Part shown: in pieces, positions 13,692-21,993 of the stretch
How positions within the stretch are numbered: position 1 is the first letter of the stretch
Layout of the letters: each line of letters begins with the position of its first letter
Assembly (NCBI GenBank): GCA_021325275.1
Contig: JAJPHL010000049.1
Coordinates: 1-57,002, forward strand
Direction of reading: 5' to 3'
From: Terriglobia bacterium
GTDB lineage: Bacteria > Acidobacteriota > Terriglobia > JAJPHL01
DNA length: 57,002 nucleotides
Made by a program: the position numbers and the translations under genes
The notes under the pieces: model-generated
Databases searched by the model: none
Told to the model about the DNA's origin: nothing
The model's input: the letters and a program-made list of their open reading frames with translations, nothing else

Positions 13692-14777
13692 ATGAGCATC
13701 AATCTTCCCACACTGCTCTGCTTGAGTTCAGGCTTGACGCCACAATATAAGCTTGATGTGCTGCGTTCGCTCGCCCTGCCAAAAGGCGGATATATCCAAT
13801 ATCGATACGGCGAAGATATTGTTTCCGACGGTCTGCACGACCGCCTCGAAGGTAACGGATTGACAGGTGCAAAGGTCTTGCTTGCCCACGTCGACTGCTC
13901 CCCGGCTATTCGGAAGGTCGGCGCTAACTGTCCCATCATGCCATGTCGGCACGCCACACTCATCGGTTCGCGAAGGATCGGTACGCGCTTCTTCTTAGAA
14001 CTACGCATGGAGGAATTCGCTACCTGCTCAGACCTCACCGGTTTCCAGCTTGCTGTAACCGGAAACCGACCGCGATGGCCAGATGAGGCAGGGAAGGAGA
14101 ATCCCATTGGTCACTGGTGCTTGGAGTCACAGGCCGGACGAGAGTGCTCAGCCGCAACTGATCTGACCGCTTGGGAGGCCGTGGTAACCGCGCTGCGGGG
14201 GACAGAGGACTTTCGTGAGCAGCCTTTCTTCTTTGCAATCGAAGGATTGGCTGTCCGCAAAGATAAAACTCTTTTGGAGCCACAGCACGCCGAGTACCAC
14301 CTCAAGGCAGAAACAGACTACGATCTGCGAATCTATCATTTTCATCCGGAAGGCGATTCCAAAACGATGGCGGGAAGTGCAGGAGTCGTCAAGGTGGAAC
14401 TCGCAGCACCCTACCTCGAACCTGTCACGAATCCTGCGATGTCGATCGATTCGCCTTATGACATCAAGACATTCCACATGAGAACCCTATCTGCAACGAA
14501 AGAGGAGTTTGCTTCGATCGTCGTGCGGATCGATGACAGGAATACGGATAAGCCCTTTGAAAACCAACCCGAACTTTATATTCCCGTGCGAGTCGAGCAA
14601 TCATTCTGGCGCCCATTTCTCGTGACTCTGCTGCTGGGAGGACTGCTAGCGATACAGCAACAAGTCACGATAGCCGTGACGAAAGGCTGGCCAAGCCTCA
14701 GTGTCACGTTAGGTACGTGCGTGCTCGGCCTTCTTATTGCGGCAGTCGCTGTGCTGGGGCTGAAAAGGCCTGTCTAG
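13692..14777 (+). CDS. unknown protein with two C-terminal membrane helices
   Basis: A 361-residue protein whose family I do not recognise. Residues 1-300 are mainly soluble and beta-rich, with several cysteines (in HVDCSPA, ANCPIMPC, ATCSDL, HWCLES and RECSAA). Two hydrophobic segments near 302-325 and 336-357 would anchor it to the membrane, leaving a very short C-terminus. There is no signal peptide, so the large domain may be cytoplasmic. GGAGA lies directly before the ATG, closer than ideal, so the start is only moderately certain. It is convergent with the YunG-like gene (10-base gap). Confidence 0.65.
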   Translation: MSINLPTLLCLSSGLTPQYKLDVLRSLALPKGGYIQYRYGEDIVSDGLHDRLEGNGLTGAKVLLAHVDCSPAIRKVGANCPIMPCRHATLIGSRRIGTRFFLELRMEEFATCSDLTGFQLAVTGNRPRWPDEAGKENPIGHWCLESQAGRECSAATDLTAWEAVVTALRGTEDFREQPFFFAIEGLAVRKDKTLLEPQHAEYHLKAETDYDLRIYHFHPEGDSKTMAGSAGVVKVELAAPYLEPVTNPAMSIDSPYDIKTFHMRTLSATKEEFASIVVRIDDRNTDKPFENQPELYIPVRVEQSFWRPFLVTLLLGGLLAIQQQVTIAVTKGWPSLSVTLGTCVLGLLIAAVAVLGLKRPV

Positions 14778-14786
14778 CTGACGCCA

Positions 14787-15341
14787 CTAGGCTCGTTGAT
14801 TGGCTGTCGCGTTTTTATCGCGTTGCTGTGTTCTGCGCGGAGAGCTAGTGGCAGGTTGTGTTTCCAGTTTCTTGAGTACGATATCGACTAGGCGATCATA
14901 CCGGCGCCGCGTGTCTGGATACCCGAGCACATACTCTCGGAGCACCGTTGAGGGTTCTTGCGCTCTGGCACTATGGCCGAATTGATGGCGGGTCAAGTCT
15001 ACCTCGGAGAGATCAGGCAGGCGATTCCAGTAATGTTCGACACCATTAACCGAACCGCGCAAGAGGTCGCCGCCCAGGAGGTCCTGGACGATCAGCGCTG
15101 TAACGGCGCACTGTCCCCATGCGCGATTGTCGGGCGACCAGCGAGTCGGATCATAAGATGTCTCGCGTTCCCAACACTGCCGAAGGAACTCCGCAAGTTC
15201 CTCTCGCCTCGGGGCGCGCTTCCCCCAACTCGGATAACGCGTCTGGCCAACCGAAGGCACTCTCTGATGGCTCACAAGCCTAAGGATACCACTGATCGAC
15301 CACGCGGGGTCAGGCCGCGCGGCGAGACCGAAAGACGACAC
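14787..15341 (-). CDS. YunG-like protein
   Basis: A 184-residue protein of unknown function. The central part carries the pattern I associate with the YunG family: GQCAVTALIVQDLLGGDLLR, then VEHYWNRLPDLSEVDLTRHQF and a closing YPDTRRRYDRLVDIVLKKL helix. The invariant-looking Cys in GQCAVTA, the His in EHYWN and the Asp in EVDLT would suit a papain-like catalytic layout, but this is inference. The first 45 residues are poorly conserved-looking and the true start may be further in. The Lys/Arg/Gln-rich C-terminal tail looks disordered. It is divergent from the GHKL operon that begins 172 bases away, and may be an accessory to it or independent cargo. Confidence 0.65.
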   Translation of the reverse strand: MSSFGLAARPDPAWSISGILRLVSHQRVPSVGQTRYPSWGKRAPRREELAEFLRQCWERETSYDPTRWSPDNRAWGQCAVTALIVQDLLGGDLLRGSVNGVEHYWNRLPDLSEVDLTRHQFGHSARAQEPSTVLREYVLGYPDTRRRYDRLVDIVLKKLETQPATSSPRRTQQRDKNATANQRA

Positions 15342-15513
15342 CCGAGTTCGCGGAGGTTCGAGATTGCGTTTTGTATCAGTAGCTTATGATGCATGCGCAC
15401 AAAACAACTGGGGATTGCACATTTTTAAGTGAAGACACGCCGGGTGCTCGTTCCCCCGACGAGCCTCCAATCCCGCTGCCTATGCGCAGCCTACGAAACG
15501 GAGAAACACAGTT

Positions 15514-17421
15514 ATGGAAGTTCAGCGATTTCCACGCCTCCTCGCAGATAACCTGCTGTCCGAGGTTGAACGCCAGCAGAAATACCTCGACAAACTCCCC
15601 AAAGGCTTTCAATTTCCCCTCTTCAACGCCATGCAGGCGCTGGAGTCCCAGCGGCGCAACGGGTATCGCAACACCGCCTCGGCCGCACGCGAACTCATCG
15701 ACAACAGTATTGAAGCTGGCGCAAAACGCATCCACGTGATCTTCGAAAAGAGCACCAAGGGTCGAGAAGTTGTGACCTCGGTCGCCGTCATCGACGATGG
15801 CGCGGGCATGCTGGCGGATATGGCGCGGTTTGCATTGAGTTGGGGTGGCGGCACGCACTTCGATGATCCCAACTTCATTGGTCGCTTTGGATTCGGACTG
15901 CCCAACGCGTCGATCAACCAAACACGTCGCGTCGAGGTCTATACCCGAACCGAAGGGCAGGAGACCATTACTAAGGCGTGGCTCGACGCGAACGAACTGC
16001 CTGAGCACGGTCTCCAGACGATACCCAAACCCACGACGGGCGACCTGCCGCGGTTCGTGCAAGGCTACCTGGAGAGAACCGGCATGGGGTTCCAGCACGG
16101 GACTGTGGTCGTCTGGGTTCAGCCAGATCGGCTCACGTATAAAATGCCGGCGTCTCTCAAAGACCATCTACTCGATGATTTTGGCACGACGTACCGCTAT
16201 CTGCTGGACGACCTCGAAATGATCGTCGAAGGCGTGAAGGTCGAGCGGGTCGATCCGCTGTTCCTTGATCCGAAGGGGCGCTTTTACCTGCCTCCTGACG
16301 AGGGGGGCGCTATCGCCGAAGAAGATCGTACGCTCCCGGTGTTGCTCTACCGCGATAACGACGGGACCGTTCACGCGCGCAAACTCAAGGATCAAGCCGA
16401 AGTCGACAGCGTGCGGGGCAAGAAGAAGCACGGCAAGGAAGAAGTCTTGGCGGTCGGCGCGATCAATTTCCGTGTTGCGAACTTTCCGTTGGGCCTAGTT
16501 GTTGGAAGACGTGGTGACGCGGACATCGCGCCAAAGGAGCATGCCAAGAAGCGTTTTGAGATCCGTCAGTCGCGGCGCGGCATGTCGTTCGTGCGGGCTG
16601 GCCGCGAGATCGAAACCGTTGACGCCTTTCCGCGGTCCTCTAAGGACATCGCCTCGGGTTTAGGGAAGTGGCCGCACCTGGAGGGCTACGCGTACCACTG
16701 GGGTATCGAAGTGCGCTTCTCGCCAGACTTGGATGACATCTTCGGGATCACGAATGACAAACAGCGCGTCCGCCCGCTCGAGGATTTCTGGCGACTCCTG
16801 GCTGAGGAAGGCGTGGACACTCTCTTGCACCGGATGAATGCACAGCAGGGCACTTGGCGGCGCGATGCCGCGAAGGCAGCAAACAGGCCTGAGGCGTCCG
16901 CGGAACCGTCGCCGGCGGAAATGGCGGCCAGCATCGTTGAGACCGTCGTTGGCAAGCCGACGCCGATTCCCGAACACGAGCGCCCCAACGTCCAGGAGAA
17001 GTTCACCAAGGCAGTCCAAGAACACGCCGAGGTCACTGGCAAGCCCGTGGACGAGGTCGCGAAGGCCGTCGAGGCAGAAGCGAAGCGTCGCCCCCACAAA
17101 ATCGAATACTTCGAAGACCCGTACGCTCCCTTCTATCGGCCCGACTGGGGGCTGGGGTCGCAAGTCGTCGTGTGGATCAACCGCAAGCACCCGTTCTACG
17201 AAACGTTCTACACGGCGTCGATGAGCAAGCTAGCCAGGGAAGGACTGGATCTCTTCCTCATCGCGCTCGCGAAAGCCGAGTTGAACGCCTCCGATCCGAC
17301 GGCGCGCCTCTGGTACGAACACCAGCGGAGCAAGGTGTGGAGCGAGTTTCTTGCCATCGCGATGAAGGACTTGGCTGCCAGATTTCCTGGCGAGGAAGGC
17401 GAGACCGACCTCGCCGCGTAA
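15514..17421 (+). CDS. MORC/MutL-like GHKL ATPase, large paralogue
   Basis: A 635-residue protein and first gene of the candidate defence block. Residues about 45-290 hold a GHKL ATPase of the MutL/MORC type: N-box ARELIDNSIEAGA with Glu60 and Asn64, G1 box DDGAGM (94-99) and lid/G2 box IGRFGFGLPNAS (122-133). A second domain follows (about 290-430), ending in the conserved-looking SRRGMSFVRAGREIE and SPDLDDIFGITNDKQRV. A charged Ala/Glu/Pro-rich linker spans roughly 445-530, then a C-terminal module (WINRKHPFYETFY, DLFLIALAKAEL). The same order of motifs occurs in the 496-residue protein at 18217, so the two are full-length paralogues. GHKL ATPases of this type dimerise on ATP binding; nucleic-acid clamping is inferred from MutL/MORC. 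Confidence 0.88.
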   Translation: MEVQRFPRLLADNLLSEVERQQKYLDKLPKGFQFPLFNAMQALESQRRNGYRNTASAARELIDNSIEAGAKRIHVIFEKSTKGREVVTSVAVIDDGAGMLADMARFALSWGGGTHFDDPNFIGRFGFGLPNASINQTRRVEVYTRTEGQETITKAWLDANELPEHGLQTIPKPTTGDLPRFVQGYLERTGMGFQHGTVVVWVQPDRLTYKMPASLKDHLLDDFGTTYRYLLDDLEMIVEGVKVERVDPLFLDPKGRFYLPPDEGGAIAEEDRTLPVLLYRDNDGTVHARKLKDQAEVDSVRGKKKHGKEEVLAVGAINFRVANFPLGLVVGRRGDADIAPKEHAKKRFEIRQSRRGMSFVRAGREIETVDAFPRSSKDIASGLGKWPHLEGYAYHWGIEVRFSPDLDDIFGITNDKQRVRPLEDFWRLLAEEGVDTLLHRMNAQQGTWRRDAAKAANRPEASAEPSPAEMAASIVETVVGKPTPIPEHERPNVQEKFTKAVQEHAEVTGKPVDEVAKAVEAEAKRRPHKIEYFEDPYAPFYRPDWGLGSQVVVWINRKHPFYETFYTASMSKLAREGLDLFLIALAKAELNASDPTARLWYEHQRSKVWSEFLAIAMKDLAARFPGEEGETDLAA

Positions 17422-17492
17422 CGCAGAAACCTGAACCCGGCGGCCTGGCTTTTGGGGACCTTCCCCTGAAGTTTGGCCGCCGCACTTTGTCC

Positions 17493-17522
17493 TTGCACAC
17501 CCGTCCCATTGAGGTGTACATT
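17493..17522 (+). promoter_or_regulatory. possible sigma-70-type promoter upstream of the sigma-like gene
   Basis: TTGCAC (17493-17498) and TACATT (17517-17522) are separated by 18 bases in the 218-base gap between the first GHKL gene and the sigma-like gene. It could give the last three genes their own transcript. The match is weak and was found by eye only. Confidence 0.2.
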
Positions 17523-17639
17523 TCTTGGTCGAAGGCGCTGCAGGTGCGGCCTACGTGCCGCCTATGCCCCCGGGCGCTGCGATAGCCTTCAAAGCAGAAT
17601 TTGAACGGTTATCGTGGCCCCAAGGAGGGACCATTACCC

Positions 17640-18203
17640 ATGCCTGTAGACCTCAGCGTAGCGCTCGTCGGATTTCAAACTGGTGATCCACAAGCACGCC
17701 AAGAATTCCCTATTATTGCTGGACCAACCCTGCTTAAGTACGCACGCTACCTTGGGTGTCTGCTGCCCAAGGATGTCATCCGGGAAGTGCCACAAGAGGC
17801 GTTGATCATTCTCCTGTCCTCAGGTGTAACACCGTTTGATCCGGCACGCGGCAAAGCTACCGCATATTTGTTCGGCGCGGTGCGCAACGCGGTCCAACGC
17901 GTGCGCGCGAGCTACTGCCCTCCCGGTACCAAAACCCGCTACGACAAAAGACAGCGTGTACCCGATTTTCAGCCCGTTCCCTTCGACGAAGCGCGGGACC
18001 CTGCAACGCAGCAGAACCTCGCGGCGGTCCACGGGGTCATCGACCTTTGGCGCGGGGTACCCGCCGTCCTGGCGGAGATCGTCCACGAAGTCTTCGTGGT
18101 GGGACTCGCGGTCGGTGAGGTCGCGCGGCGGCGCGGCATGAGCAGGTTCGCAGTACATCGTCAACTCCGCACCTTCATCGATAGCAAACAACACATCCTG
18201 TAA
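17640..18203 (+). CDS. ECF sigma-like / HTH protein within the GHKL-DruA block
   Basis: A 187-residue protein with the shape of an ECF sigma factor. Residues about 60-100 (FDPARGKATAYLFGAVRNA) resemble region 2, with the DP.KG..A.yLf...RN pattern, and residues about 150-183 (VGLAVGEVARRRGMSRFAVH) form a region 4-type helix-turn-helix. The first 55 residues add an extra helical segment. The ATG at 17640 is chosen; AGGAGG lies about 12 bases upstream, a long spacing, and a TTG at 17601 is the in-frame alternative. Its stop is 13 bases before the next gene. It could drive or autoregulate the operon, or be a DNA-binding subunit of the system; the sequence does not decide. Confidence 0.7.
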   Translation: MPVDLSVALVGFQTGDPQARQEFPIIAGPTLLKYARYLGCLLPKDVIREVPQEALIILLSSGVTPFDPARGKATAYLFGAVRNAVQRVRASYCPPGTKTRYDKRQRVPDFQPVPFDEARDPATQQNLAAVHGVIDLWRGVPAVLAEIVHEVFVVGLAVGEVARRRGMSRFAVHRQLRTFIDSKQHIL

Positions 18204-18216
18204 CGAGGCCATCCCC

Positions 18217-19707
18217 GTGCCTACCACACGAAAAACCAGCCAGGGGTGTCCGATCGTCCTACCCGCGACGTTTGTCCAAGCGATTCGAGACGCGGGCTAC
18301 AAGAACACCAGCGCGGCCTTGGCCGAACTCATCGACAATAGCATCGAAGCAGGCGCCCACAATGTAGCGATTGATCTCGTCGGCCCGCCATCCTCGCCCT
18401 TGGTCATTCGCGTAACCGACGACGGAACAGGCATGACACCCAACGTCTTGCAACTCGCCCTGCAGTTTGGCGGCAGCACTCGATTCAACGGACGCTCTGG
18501 CACCGGGCGCTACGGCATGGGACTTCCCTGCAGTTCCCTCAGCCAGGCACGACGCGTCGGCGTCTTCTCCTGGACCCACCCCACCGCCAATTGGTTCACC
18601 TACCTCGACATCGACGAGATCACGACCCAGAAAAGCTCACGCATTCCGCCGGTGCGGCTGGCGAGGAGCACGTCTCCAACGCCCTCCGGTACGGTCGTCG
18701 AGCTCTCGCGGTGCGACCGCATTGACTACAAGCGCCTTGGCGTGCTTCTCGAGCGCCTGCATCGTGACCTCGGGCGCATCTTCCGTCGAGCCCTCCTCGG
18801 TGGCCTCCAACTTCGGATCAACGAGCGTCCGGTGCGTTCGATCGACCCACTCTTCCTCGAAGGCCACACGGAAATCGGGTTAGCCGAGGCGTTCGGGCCT
18901 CCGATGGAGTTCCCCATCACTATTCCCGAGAAGAGTGCTGCCTCGGTGGTGCTGGTGCGGTTCTCGTTGTTGCCGGTGGCGCGTTGGCACGGATTCTCCA
19001 ATGAGGAGAAGTCGCGACACGGGATTTCGAAGGCGGCTGGCGTGTCGATCGTTCGCGGTGGTCGCGAAATTGATCGCGGTTGGTTCTTCATGGGGGGGAA
19101 ACGCCGTGAAAACTACGACGACTGGTGGCGGTGCGAAGTTCAGTTCTCACCCTTGCTCGATGAGCTCTTCGGCCTGACGCACACGAAGCAGCGCGTGTAC
19201 CCAACGGATGCCCTCAACAGTATCCTTTCCCCACATCTTGAAGCGGCGGCGCACCAACTTAATGCCCGCGTACGCACTGCGTTTCAAGCGGTCGCGCAAC
19301 AGGCCGCAGTCTCCAGCGGTGAACGTCGTGCGCAGCAAAATGATATGCTCCTCGAACCGTTAAAAATTGCCGCGCCGCATCGCAGCACCCTACCTCCGTC
19401 GTTGGTGCAAGGGCTGCGCTATCGCCTTGAGCGGCGGCGCTTGCCTGGTGCCGATTTGTTTCTTCCCACGCTGGTGGGTGACGAAGTGCGTGTGGCGCTC
19501 AACACGCATCACGTGTTTTATGATCAGGTATACGCGAAGATCTTGTCGCGCGGTCAGGTGCGTTCTTTGGAGGCGCTTGAAGCAGTGGATCTCTTGTTCT
19601 TGGCGTTTGGTCGGGCGGAGTGTTCGCTGCGTCGCGGCGTGGCCCGCGAAGGTGCGGCGCGTGTCCGTGAGCGGTGGAGTACGATCCTTGGTACGTTTTT
19701 CTCATGA
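18217..19707 (+). CDS. MORC/MutL-like GHKL ATPase, small paralogue
   Basis: A 496-residue paralogue of the protein encoded at 15514. N-box LAELIDNSIEAGA (Glu38, Asn41), G1 box DDGTGM (68-73) and G2 box GTGRYGMGLPCSS (95-107) are intact. The later shared motifs are also present: GVSIVRGGREIDRGWFF, SPLLDELFGLTHTKQRV and a C-terminal NTHHVFYDQVY ... LLFLAFGRAE. It lacks most of the charged linker of the larger paralogue. GTG start with GAGG 10 bases upstream; 13 bases from the sigma-like gene and 15 bases before the DruA-like gene, so the three are an operon. Codon third positions in its second half are strongly G/T-biased. Two intact but different ATPases suggest a heteromeric clamp. Confidence 0.88.
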   Translation: MPTTRKTSQGCPIVLPATFVQAIRDAGYKNTSAALAELIDNSIEAGAHNVAIDLVGPPSSPLVIRVTDDGTGMTPNVLQLALQFGGSTRFNGRSGTGRYGMGLPCSSLSQARRVGVFSWTHPTANWFTYLDIDEITTQKSSRIPPVRLARSTSPTPSGTVVELSRCDRIDYKRLGVLLERLHRDLGRIFRRALLGGLQLRINERPVRSIDPLFLEGHTEIGLAEAFGPPMEFPITIPEKSAASVVLVRFSLLPVARWHGFSNEEKSRHGISKAAGVSIVRGGREIDRGWFFMGGKRRENYDDWWRCEVQFSPLLDELFGLTHTKQRVYPTDALNSILSPHLEAAAHQLNARVRTAFQAVAQQAAVSSGERRAQQNDMLLEPLKIAAPHRSTLPPSLVQGLRYRLERRRLPGADLFLPTLVGDEVRVALNTHHVFYDQVYAKILSRGQVRSLEALEAVDLLFLAFGRAECSLRRGVAREGAARVRERWSTILGTFFS

Positions 19708-19722
19708 GATGGGAATCGAACA

Positions 19723-21741
19723 GTGGCTGATCGACTAATCTTGGCGCCAGATCTTGATGACAAGGGGAAGGCGCGGTTCCGCGAACTCTGCGCGCAACTG
19801 CACGCAATCCTTGCGACTGGCGACCGTGCCTTGGCTGTTCCTCAAGTACTGGCAAGCTTGGTTGAAACGGGCCGTTGTCCGTCCACCGGAGACCTGAAGG
19901 TACTAGTTGCAATCCACGTCGTTTGCGATCTCGTCTGTCAGGGATGGACGCTAGAAGTGGCGGGTGATGAGGTGGCGATGCTTTTGGAGGACTCGTCGGG
20001 TCGCTCCAAAGAGATCGTGCGCAAAGGTCACCTGATCGAGCGGGACGAGCAACTTCGCGAGCCGTCGGTCGCCGAGTTCGTCAGGGGGATGGAACGCCGT
20101 CGACTGACGTCGCAGGGATGGCACTCCATCTATTCCGTCATGCGCGATGGACGGCAACTGGCGCAAGCACTCGCTAGCGCAGAAGACCCAAGCACCATTA
20201 TCAAGCCATACGTTCAGGCCGTCGAAACAGGCAAAGTGTGTGAGGAAACCGGCTTGGTCCTGAGTGATATCTGGCGATACTTCCGGCACACGTGGGTCAC
20301 AGCATATCGCAGCGTACCAGGGCGTAGCATGATGGTCTTGGTCCGCGACGCTGCCTGCAAACACCATCCCGTGATTGGTATCGGTGCCCTTGGGAGCGCT
20401 GTCGTCCAACAGAGTGTCCGTGACAGGTGGATCGGATGGCATGCCGCCAATGGCATTCCACCTCTTCTTGACAAGCCGGTGCCGGCGACCGCTCGTTGGT
20501 TGTGCAAGCGCCTCGACGACCAGCTCCGCACGATCTACAAAGCCGATCTATTCCGCAGTGAGTTGTTAAAGCCATCGGATCTGCGTCGACCGTCGGAACG
20601 GGTGATCGCGCGCCTGCGCACGCGCGCTGAGAAGGCAATGGTTGCGCACCGGCTGAACCCACAAAAGGCGGTGCACAAGCGCAGTTTGTCCGACGGTGCG
20701 CCGACGCGCGGTGAATGGCGTGCTCGCGCGGAATCCAACCTGTTTCTCGCAAAGCGTTGTAAGTTGCTAGCGAGCCTGCTAGGTATTCAACTCGCGTTCA
20801 ATGAACACCTGCGGAACGCCAAACGCAAGAAGCAGGTTGCGCTTGCCTTTAGCCAGGGTAAGGTGCGTGCCGCTATTGGGCGATTGGTGCGCCTGCTCAA
20901 GGCCGATCACGTCGGGATCAACCTGATGGACATCACCGTTTGCGGTGCGATCGCGCCCTACAATGCACTTTTGGGCGGGAAATTGGTCTGCCTGATGCTG
21001 GCGAGCCCGATAGTCGTCGAAGCATACCGAAAACGATACGGAAAACAACAGAGCCTTATCGCCTCCTGCATGAAAGGAGAGCGCGTCATTAGGAAACCCG
21101 ACCTCGTTCTGCTCGGCACGACGAGCCTCTACGGGATCGGCTCCAGCCAATACAATCGAATCAGAGTCGACGCAGAACAACTCGGCGGCGCACCAGGAGC
21201 ACGCATCGAATACGTCGAACTTGGTGCAAGCGTCGGGTTCGGCTCCTTTCACTTCAGCGACGAAACTGTCGAACTCATCAACGTCCTTCTCGGACGCGTC
21301 AAAGAGGGGCGACGCGTCAACAGCATCTTCGGCGAAGGCGTCAACCCACTCATGAGAAAAATCAGAGAAGCACTCGACCTCCTGGGTATGGGAAGCGACA
21401 ATATCCTCAAACACGGCAACCGACGCATCGTCTATGCCGTGCCGCTCGCCACCAACTTTAGAGAAATACTCCTCGGCCTCCAACAACGACCAAAATACAT
21501 CGTCCCAACGAAGGACCCTGAAGCAGGAACCAACGCGCTCGCCAACTATTGGACCAACCGCTGGCTCCAGAAAAGAATCGAACGACCAGGAATCCTACAG
21601 CAGGTGGCAACACATACTACGGACTACCCAATACACCATGGAGCAAGGGTCACTCTACCCGACGATGAAGAAAACATCCCACCACTCCTTAAAAACATGG
21701 ACGCAGCGGGCCTAGCGGCTCAGCAAGTACCGGCGGTATAA
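19723..21741 (+). CDS. DUF4338 / DruA-family protein (Druantia-related)
   Basis: A 672-residue protein. From about residue 185 it shows the motifs I associate with the DUF4338 (Druantia DruA) family: WRYFRHTW (184-191), VPGRSMMVLVRDA (198-210), HPVIGIGALGS (215-225), RDRWIGW (233-239), then CGAIAPYNALLGGKLV from Cys407, TTSLYG (466-471), SSQYNR and a late SFHFSDETVELINVLL. Residues 1-180 are a helical N-terminal extension. DruA is a component of type I Druantia phage defence; its biochemical role is not established to my knowledge. The other Druantia proteins, including the large DruE helicase, are not here; instead two GHKL ATPases and a sigma-like protein precede it. GTG start, with only a weak upstream GGGA. 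Codon third positions in the last third are A/C-biased, unlike its first part. Confidence 0.8.
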   Translation: MADRLILAPDLDDKGKARFRELCAQLHAILATGDRALAVPQVLASLVETGRCPSTGDLKVLVAIHVVCDLVCQGWTLEVAGDEVAMLLEDSSGRSKEIVRKGHLIERDEQLREPSVAEFVRGMERRRLTSQGWHSIYSVMRDGRQLAQALASAEDPSTIIKPYVQAVETGKVCEETGLVLSDIWRYFRHTWVTAYRSVPGRSMMVLVRDAACKHHPVIGIGALGSAVVQQSVRDRWIGWHAANGIPPLLDKPVPATARWLCKRLDDQLRTIYKADLFRSELLKPSDLRRPSERVIARLRTRAEKAMVAHRLNPQKAVHKRSLSDGAPTRGEWRARAESNLFLAKRCKLLASLLGIQLAFNEHLRNAKRKKQVALAFSQGKVRAAIGRLVRLLKADHVGINLMDITVCGAIAPYNALLGGKLVCLMLASPIVVEAYRKRYGKQQSLIASCMKGERVIRKPDLVLLGTTSLYGIGSSQYNRIRVDAEQLGGAPGARIEYVELGASVGFGSFHFSDETVELINVLLGRVKEGRRVNSIFGEGVNPLMRKIREALDLLGMGSDNILKHGNRRIVYAVPLATNFREILLGLQQRPKYIVPTKDPEAGTNALANYWTNRWLQKRIERPGILQQVATHTTDYPIHHGARVTLPDDEENIPPLLKNMDAAGLAAQQVPAV

Positions 21742-21916: not shown

Positions 21917-21993
21917 TGGTGGGCCTGTAGAGACTCGAACTCTAGACCTCTACCGTGTCAAGGTAGCGCTCTAACCAACTGAGCTACAGGCCC
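21917..21993 (-). tRNA. tRNA-Val (anticodon GAC)
   Basis: Read on the minus strand this 77-base sequence folds as a complete cloverleaf: acceptor GGGCCTG/CAGGCCC, D-stem GCTC/GAGC, anticodon stem CTACC/GGTAG with loop TTGACAC, and T-stem TAGAG/CTCTA around TTCGAGT. The anticodon is GAC (valine), and the terminal CCA is encoded. Its 3' end points toward the accessory region, so it may have been the integration site for that block; the coordinates mark where gene content and base composition change. Confidence 0.97.

Follow-up and report, generated by a model that had tools for sequence, protein, structure and literature searches.

A Druantia-Related Gene Set with Two MORC-Like GHKL ATPases, a Sigma-Like Protein, DruA, and a Structured Leader

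Gene Content and Layout of the Locus

The window analyzed here, the whole stretch of 57,002 nucleotides of contig JAJPHL010000049.1 from a Terriglobia bacterium (assembly GCA_021325275.1), contains at positions 15514-21741 four uninterrupted open reading frames (ORFs), all on the + strand, coding for a first GHKL ATPase (GHKL1), a sigma-like protein, a second GHKL ATPase (GHKL2), and a long DruA. A previous sequence-only reading of the same DNA had proposed them as a candidate defense operon of four co-directional genes, three of them 13-15 bases apart; the ORF check confirms the genes and their coordinates, with gaps of 218 nt between GHKL1 and the sigma gene (start at ATG 17640), 13 nt between the sigma gene and GHKL2, and 15 nt between GHKL2 and DruA. 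The sigma start is better placed at ATG 17640 than at TTG 17601, because the Shine-Dalgarno sequence AAGGAGG stands just upstream of the former. The unit probably reaches the neighboring genes c16 and YunG and includes a conserved structured leader of the sigma gene. The set and its associated elements comprise:

15475..15490, + strand: hairpin GCUGC-CUAUGC-GCAGC before the GHKL1 Shine-Dalgarno sequence, homologous to leader hairpin P3
15514..17421, + strand: GHKL1, 635-aa MORC/MutL-like GHKL ATPase (HATPase_c_3 5e-16; MORC2 is the top PDB profile and Foldseek match)
17493..17517, + strand: promoter-like TTGCACA ... TACATT, from the upstream alignment; the -10-like box ends ~10 nt before the leader element
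17531..17650, + strand: structured sigma-gene leader with its conserved core at 17531-17590 (model R1, fold z -4.1), predicted to sequester the Shine-Dalgarno and start region
17640..18203, + strand: sigma gene, diverged protein of 187 aa resembling extracytoplasmic function (ECF) sigma factors (family profiles; near GHKL1 in 14/14 loci)
18217..19707, + strand: GHKL2, 496-aa MORC/MutL-like GHKL ATPase (HATPase_c_3 5e-23; immediately precedes DruA in almost every locus)
19723..21741, + strand: DruA, DUF4338, long form of 672 aa (PF14236 7e-35; PDLC00001 594 bits; AlphaFold2 predicted local distance difference test (pLDDT) 90)

Recurrence of the Gene Set across Genomes

Scanning species-level genomes with a DruA alignment yielded 80 long-DruA loci, referred to here by L numbers, in which the GHKL genes were sorted by two profiles. 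A GHKL gene adjoins DruA in 78 of the 80 loci, the exceptions being L081 (a 3.5-kb contig) and L089, and it is GHKL2 that lies directly upstream of DruA in nearly all cases. GHKL1-type loci number 14 (the window, L008, L010, L016, L017, L019, L020, L021, L022, L023, L029, L035, L066, and L090), and every one of them carries a sigma-like gene adjacent to GHKL1 or one to two genes away; by the same profiles the gene is found in 0/68 loci without GHKL1 (Fisher 5e-16, a descriptive value because the profiles came from these loci and the rows are related). The sigma gene occupies four arrangements, namely (i) between GHKL1 and GHKL2, (ii) upstream, (iii) downstream and convergent, and (iv) in a divergent block. 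One further locus, L009 from Paracoccus, has an ambiguous GHKL gene, and sigma was not found there.

The combination recurs in records of Acidobacteriota, Alpha- and Betaproteobacteria, Bacteroidota, Verrucomicrobia, and Poribacteria. The four-gene set is a real one and not a chance cluster, and co-occurrence, which the sequence-only reading had put forward as its own check, is borne out. The occurrence is very patchy (1/396 genomes in the phylum), and the set is carried on mobilizable plasmids and virus-like contigs. GHKL1 itself is rare: it is found only in the window among 396 Acidobacteriota genomes and, at full length, only in the query genome among 395 genomes of the taxonomic class of L022, and no GHKL1 homologue was found at 1e-15 in phage records. 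As a separate observation, one Bacteroidota genome carries two diverged sigma-GHKL1-GHKL2-DruA blocks (L022 and L023), each followed by the same clusters of the short prokaryotic Argonaute (pAgo) type.

A Shared Core with Two Alternative Arms

Druantia type I, attributed to Doron et al. in 2018, reportedly comprises DruABCDE. In most of the other loci GHKL2-DruA adjoins the PADLOC DruE1 helicase (1934 bits in L020) and DruD1 (346 bits), and the same DruE loci also hold an unnamed protein of 700-1000 aa and, in many cases, a PD-(D/E)XK nuclease as well. Within the stretches fetched, DruE or some other helicase/FtsK is present in 57/68 of the loci without GHKL1, and 10 of the remaining 11 end early at a contig edge. 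In contrast, DruE is absent locally from 12/14 GHKL1+sigma loci, only L010 and L020 having it (1e-6).

Extending the search to whole genomes gave no DruE at 1e-30 in those of the window, L016, L019, L021, L022, L029, L035, L066, and L090, some of which are incomplete metagenome-assembled genomes (MAGs). The L017 genome returned only a helicase of 137 bits, and the window genome only weak generic helicase matches (best 46 bits) and no DruD homologue; across the whole genomes or records of the searched sigma loci, DruE appears only in L020 and the L010 plasmid. The absence of the Druantia helicase, as claimed in the sequence-only reading, therefore holds both at the locus and in the whole genome. 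The tie to Druantia is tighter than that reading allowed, GHKL2-DruA being usually adjacent to a Druantia-I DruE/DruD core.

On the DruA tree, sister DruAs carry different arms (window/L014, L017/L018, and L022-L023/L024). Since the sigma loci are mostly without DruE and sister DruAs swap arms, GHKL2-DruA looks like a shared core, and GHKL1+sigma like an exchangeable arm standing in for DruE.

Three other arrangements were observed around this core. The 700-1000-aa protein between DruA and DruD (L020:12642-15572; cluster 3, ~55 loci) has no Pfam/PADLOC match. In actinobacterial Druantia loci (L046, L049, L071, L080, and 13 others), a small gene with ~130 aa conserved lies directly upstream of GHKL2, for which a convincing Pfam match was not found. 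A further arm beside GHKL2-DruA (L028, L030, L031, L032, and L037) comprises an SNF2-like helicase of ~1030 aa, a 340-aa protein, and a NERD/UvrD-like protein.

The Encoded Proteins

The two GHKL ATPases are paralogous, sharing 33% identity over 255 aa, and both match HATPase_c_3 with intact N, G1, and G2 motifs, in agreement with the sequence-only reading. Across 12-14 GHKL1 sequences, the GHKL domain preserves D63/N64, D94/G96/G98, and G123/G126/G128. The best PDB profile match of GHKL1 is MORC2 (2e-12), and Foldseek likewise places MORC2 first for its model (3e-12), with MORC2, MutL, and MORC3 as top matches over ~450 columns and a GHKL domain followed by an S5 domain fold; the fold is less certain because the model pLDDT is 77. 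By profile and predicted fold, GHKL1 is MORC-like. The nearest GHKL relatives outside the DruA group are encoded on the L139, L140, and L142 plasmids, at ~30% identity.

The sigma-like protein of the window alone gives a weak match (SigK model, 2e-4). The sigma70-ECF model TIGR02937 is matched by 5/6 family members (best 1.9e-7), over 161 columns (E 4e-8) the family profile aligns with bona fide sigma proteins that other loci encode at the equivalent position, and ECF sigma regions 2 and 4 are recognized via family profiles, so that the ECF sigma-like assignment of the sequence-only reading is upheld at family level. Pfam sigma regions independently back the sigma identity in L016, L066, L035, L021, L022, L029, and L090. 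Among the loci, the sigma type ranges from ECF-like to full sigma-70, with GHKL1 constant.

DruA, correctly named in the sequence-only reading, matches PF14236 (7e-35) and the full-length PADLOC DruA1 profile (PDLC00001, 594 bits over 26-654). Its AlphaFold2 model, built from 55 locus sequences, reaches a pLDDT of 90. Foldseek alone gave nothing significant for this model, only a scatter of acetyltransferases, so the GNAT reading is carried by a second look with VIA-align, in which rows 1-23 are all acyltransferase-type folds (Z 5.1-8.8, top 8.8, KKT23). The match falls on residues ~160-240 and ~400-580, with a helical insertion at ~240-400 between them. DruA is thus predicted to contain a GNAT (acyltransferase) fold interrupted by a helical insertion, which agrees with the description of DUF4338 as a GNAT domain (PMC10853773). 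Residues 418-421, an invariant GGK(L), might form a coenzyme A loop, and DruA may catalyze acyl transfer.

A Structured Leader in Front of the Sigma Gene

Alignment of the upstream regions discloses a leader block before the sigma gene common to the window, L017, L020, the Roseobacter plasmids, and also L019, with a core of 58-64 nt. Between the Roseivivax and Leisingera plasmids this core is identical at 64/64 nt, compared with 73% for the sigma gene and 60% for the DNA just upstream. The covariance model R1 scores 65-78 bits, only before sigma genes, with the next best match in 1.78 Mb reaching 19.7 bits. In a set of 396 Acidobacteriota genomes it finds the window only (76 bits; next 31 bits); it is the gap in bit scores that counts, because nearly all matches trained the model. 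In five loci (window, L017, L020, L008, and L010) the distance from the end of a -10-like box to the element is 8-10 nt, and therefore the transcript should start at the element.

The full leader up to the start codon folds alike in the window, L017, L020, and L008 (z -3.9 to -4.4; L010, -2.4). The conserved GCAGGU is predicted to pair with the AUGCCUGC start region, and CCCCC with the Shine-Dalgarno sequence in the window, L017, and L020. The core can also adopt an alternative, mutually exclusive multi-branch fold, ~15-20 kcal/mol weaker for the full leader, which is the predicted fold in L019 and whose pairs are 96% kept with modest covariation. The central hairpin of the leader (P3) recurs before the GHKL1 Shine-Dalgarno sequence in the window, L017, L019, L020, L008, and L010; in the sigma and GHKL1 copies together, 100% of the cells are paired, four pair types occur at one position, and covariation is 0.465 versus 0.151+-0.047 (0/500 shuffles).

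A genome-wide repeat was considered and rejected, the leader being single copy in the genome. Rfam families at E up to 1 gave only tRNA matches in 13-22.2 kb, a pattern search of the virus collection found no leader, and a search of plasmids returned only the three already in the locus set.

The simplest reading is that the leader is a cis-acting RNA holding back sigma, perhaps also GHKL1. The predicted folds suggest regulation by occlusion of the start site, and one might guess at a protein bound to the shared hairpin.

Other elements accompany the leader. TTGCACA, followed downstream by an xATACT-like box, lies before both GHKL1 and sigma in the Roseobacter plasmids and, in the window, before sigma; a shared sigma-type promoter class is not claimed, because the motif is not found in L017, L019, and L020. 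In a related observation, TGCACA is followed 17-19 nt on by a (G/T)ATACT-like box upstream of GHKL1, GHKL2, and sigma in L008, L010, and L141, and at 17493 in the window; it may mark a common promoter class, but is likewise not seen in L017, L019, or L020. A long hairpin right after the GHKL1 stop (17438-17481), distinct from the sigma leader, may be a terminator or processing site.

Interpretation and Alternatives

We favor, with a probability of roughly one half, a Druantia-related defense operon in which GHKL2+DruA is the core, GHKL1+sigma is the arm that replaces DruE, and sigma is gated by the leader. This reading takes as its ground the gene set, its conservation, the exchange of arms, the leader with its conserved pairing, and the predicted folds; the role in defense is suggested by kinship and neighborhood. 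The sigma mRNA would be made at a low level, with the folded leader hiding the ribosome-binding and start region, so that little sigma protein would be produced. Infection would open or bypass the leader, via a signal or the loss of a bound system protein; sigma, until then limiting, would be freed to accumulate and, as an activator, would direct RNA polymerase to the operon and its neighbors. Together with DruA, the two MORC-like ATPases might then work as ATP-driven clamps on the DNA of the invader.

Several points weigh against this view. The hidden Markov models of GHKL1 and sigma derive from these very loci, which come partly from incomplete MAGs and represent non-independent events; three virus-like contigs carry GHKL1 + DruA with sigma not detected; and the sigma protein of the window is diverged, falling below Pfam thresholds by itself. 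Moreover, recognition of the leader is limited to one GHKL1 clade, that of Acidobacteriota and Alphaproteobacteria, and does not extend to the loci of Bacteroidota, Verrucomicrobia, or Betaproteobacteria.

Eukaryotic MORC proteins compact and silence DNA. The principal rival, unlikely but the best placed of the alternatives, is that sigma is a targeting subunit through which the MORC-like ATPases reach RNA polymerase or promoters of the invading DNA, where the clamps would compact and silence it. The proximity of GHKL1 to MORC2 in sequence profile and fold, the specific adjacency of sigma to GHKL1, and the variation of sigma type around an unchanging GHKL1, as if only RNA polymerase binding mattered, all speak for it; however, a conserved leader at the sigma gene points to sigma dosage as what is regulated.

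A more speculative proposal, which we advance only tentatively, has the leader itself sense infection, or serve the complex as a non-coding RNA bound by a GHKL or DruA protein via the hairpin common to the sigma and GHKL1 messages, such that phage takeover of RNA or translation would free sigma and lead to MORC-clamp silencing of the invader. On this view the set would be a prokaryotic analogue of MORC silencing that is gated by RNA and sigma, its arm being interchangeable with the helicase of Druantia.

It is rather doubtful that the set is instead a regulatory or maintenance operon of mobile elements, serving stress response or copy control. Carriage on mobilizable plasmids, a Tn7-like transposase near the set in L019, and the lack of an evident nuclease among the four genes would fit such a role, whereas DruA belongs to a known defense-system family, defense-type neighbors occur in about 8/14 loci, and the patchy occurrence (1/396 genomes) also argues otherwise.

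Conservation of the leader as a short leader peptide (M[PT]P...), and not as RNA, is improbable. An AUG follows P3 in all sigma leaders, and the window, L017, and L020 read MPPGAAxAFK; nevertheless, the frame is lost in L019 (MTPKSLQQ) and L008 (MTPERCAR, stop), conservation is just as strong in the non-coding 5' half, and P3 shows covariation when the GHKL1 copies are included.

Least probable of all is a decayed or accessory piece of Druantia I that lost its helicase and whose four genes do little alone, since, even if GHKL2-DruA lies beside DruE in most loci and L020 and L010 carry both arms, DruE-less loci with intact genes exist in several phyla, ordinary DruE loci seldom carry GHKL1+sigma, and strong constraint acts on the leader.

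Recognizing GHKL2-DruA as a widespread core of two genes, combined with one of two alternative arms, bears on the role of DruA in Druantia. In addition, a defense-type operon here includes a sigma factor dedicated to it, along with a structured RNA that is conserved; an earlier description of an immune operon controlled by its own sigma with an RNA leader was not found. The Roseivivax THAF30/THAF40 and Leisingera S132 plasmids provide lab-tractable carriers of the set.

Relation to Known Systems

The set sits near Druantia I, as a variant around a shared core, but is not a member of it. The DruA of the window is of the PADLOC DruA1 type, and in sister loci GHKL2-DruA adjoins DruD1 and DruE1, which makes it a variant of a shared core and not an unrelated operon; on the other hand, the window lacks DruE, DruB, DruC, and DruD (for the last three, PADLOC gave no match in any of the seven genes lying at 13.7-22.9 kb) and has two GHKL ATPases and a sigma-like protein instead, and it is the tested absence of the defining helicase that excludes membership.

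Prokaryotic MORC/paraMORC operons place MORC-like GHKL + S5 ATPases in defense-like operons, some with two GHKL families, and resemble the set in this respect, but they pair them with superfamily II helicases, methylases, and nucleases, and sigma is unmentioned there (Iyer et al. 2008, PMC2292703); no superfamily II helicase and nuclease linked to the set, as in MORC-type restriction operons, was found among the neighbors. MZA shares a related GHKL ATPase domain in MzaB (E 2e-21), yet the scores of 75.8 and 49.5 bits compare with a MzaB cut-off of 850, and no other Mza gene occurs among the neighbors. In CapK/CapS, a GHKL protein is tied to transcription control of immune operons; CapK is, however, an anti-sigma-kinase type GHKL protein with a STAS/HTH repressor partner, whereas the window combines a MORC-type ATPase with sigma (PMC13373217). 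Finally, the plasmid operons of GHKL + DEAD helicase + phospholipase-D (L139, L140, and L142), which hold the nearest outside GHKL relatives, are devoid of DruA and sigma and lie beside Dnd/PAPS-type genes. Neither GHKL with DruA nor sigma in such an operon is described in the papers found, which concern Druantia, MORC operons, YprA helicases, and GHKL regulators, with partial coverage of subscription journals. As the sequence-only reading had surmised, no named system with this make-up was found.

Neighboring Genes

Three further features flank the set:

13692..14777, + strand: c16, 361 aa, its C terminus hydrophobic and probably anchored in the membrane; it may be a partner or effector and has homologues near GHKL/DruA
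14787..15341, - strand: YunG-family protein, a recurrent partner of c16 (PF24585 2.8e-32; exact start unsure)
21917..21993, - strand: tRNA-Val(GAC), context only (ARAGORN and Rfam)

The sequence-only reading had counted the tRNA as supporting weight. It carries no general weight, the link being local, because 0/17 related loci have a tRNA and no tRNA-end repeat was found; integration at tRNA-Val was likewise rejected, the tRNA end being uncopied elsewhere in the window.

The association with defense islands expected in the same reading is found in other loci, about 8/14 of the sigma loci having defense-type neighbors. Across the loci, neighbors of this type include (i) short pAgo/TIR (L022, with the same clusters in L023), (ii) E1-E2-JAB (L029), (iii) HEC-01 (L021), (iv) a mad8-like gene (L090), (v) a RES-Xre pair (L141), and (vi) DruE/DruD in other loci.

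No Pfam, PADLOC, or NCBIfam match was obtained for c16, and none of the other 395 sampled Acidobacteriota genomes contains it. Its homologues lie near GHKL/DruA in nine loci (L015, L017, L021, L022, L023, L024, L086, L090, and the viral L136), with YunG beside c16 in L015, L021, L022-L024, L086, and L090. The pair (13692-15341) may be a separate small system travelling with DruA/GHKL loci. A c25 variant accompanies YunG at L022-L024, and the L136 copy of c16 lies on a virus-like contig.

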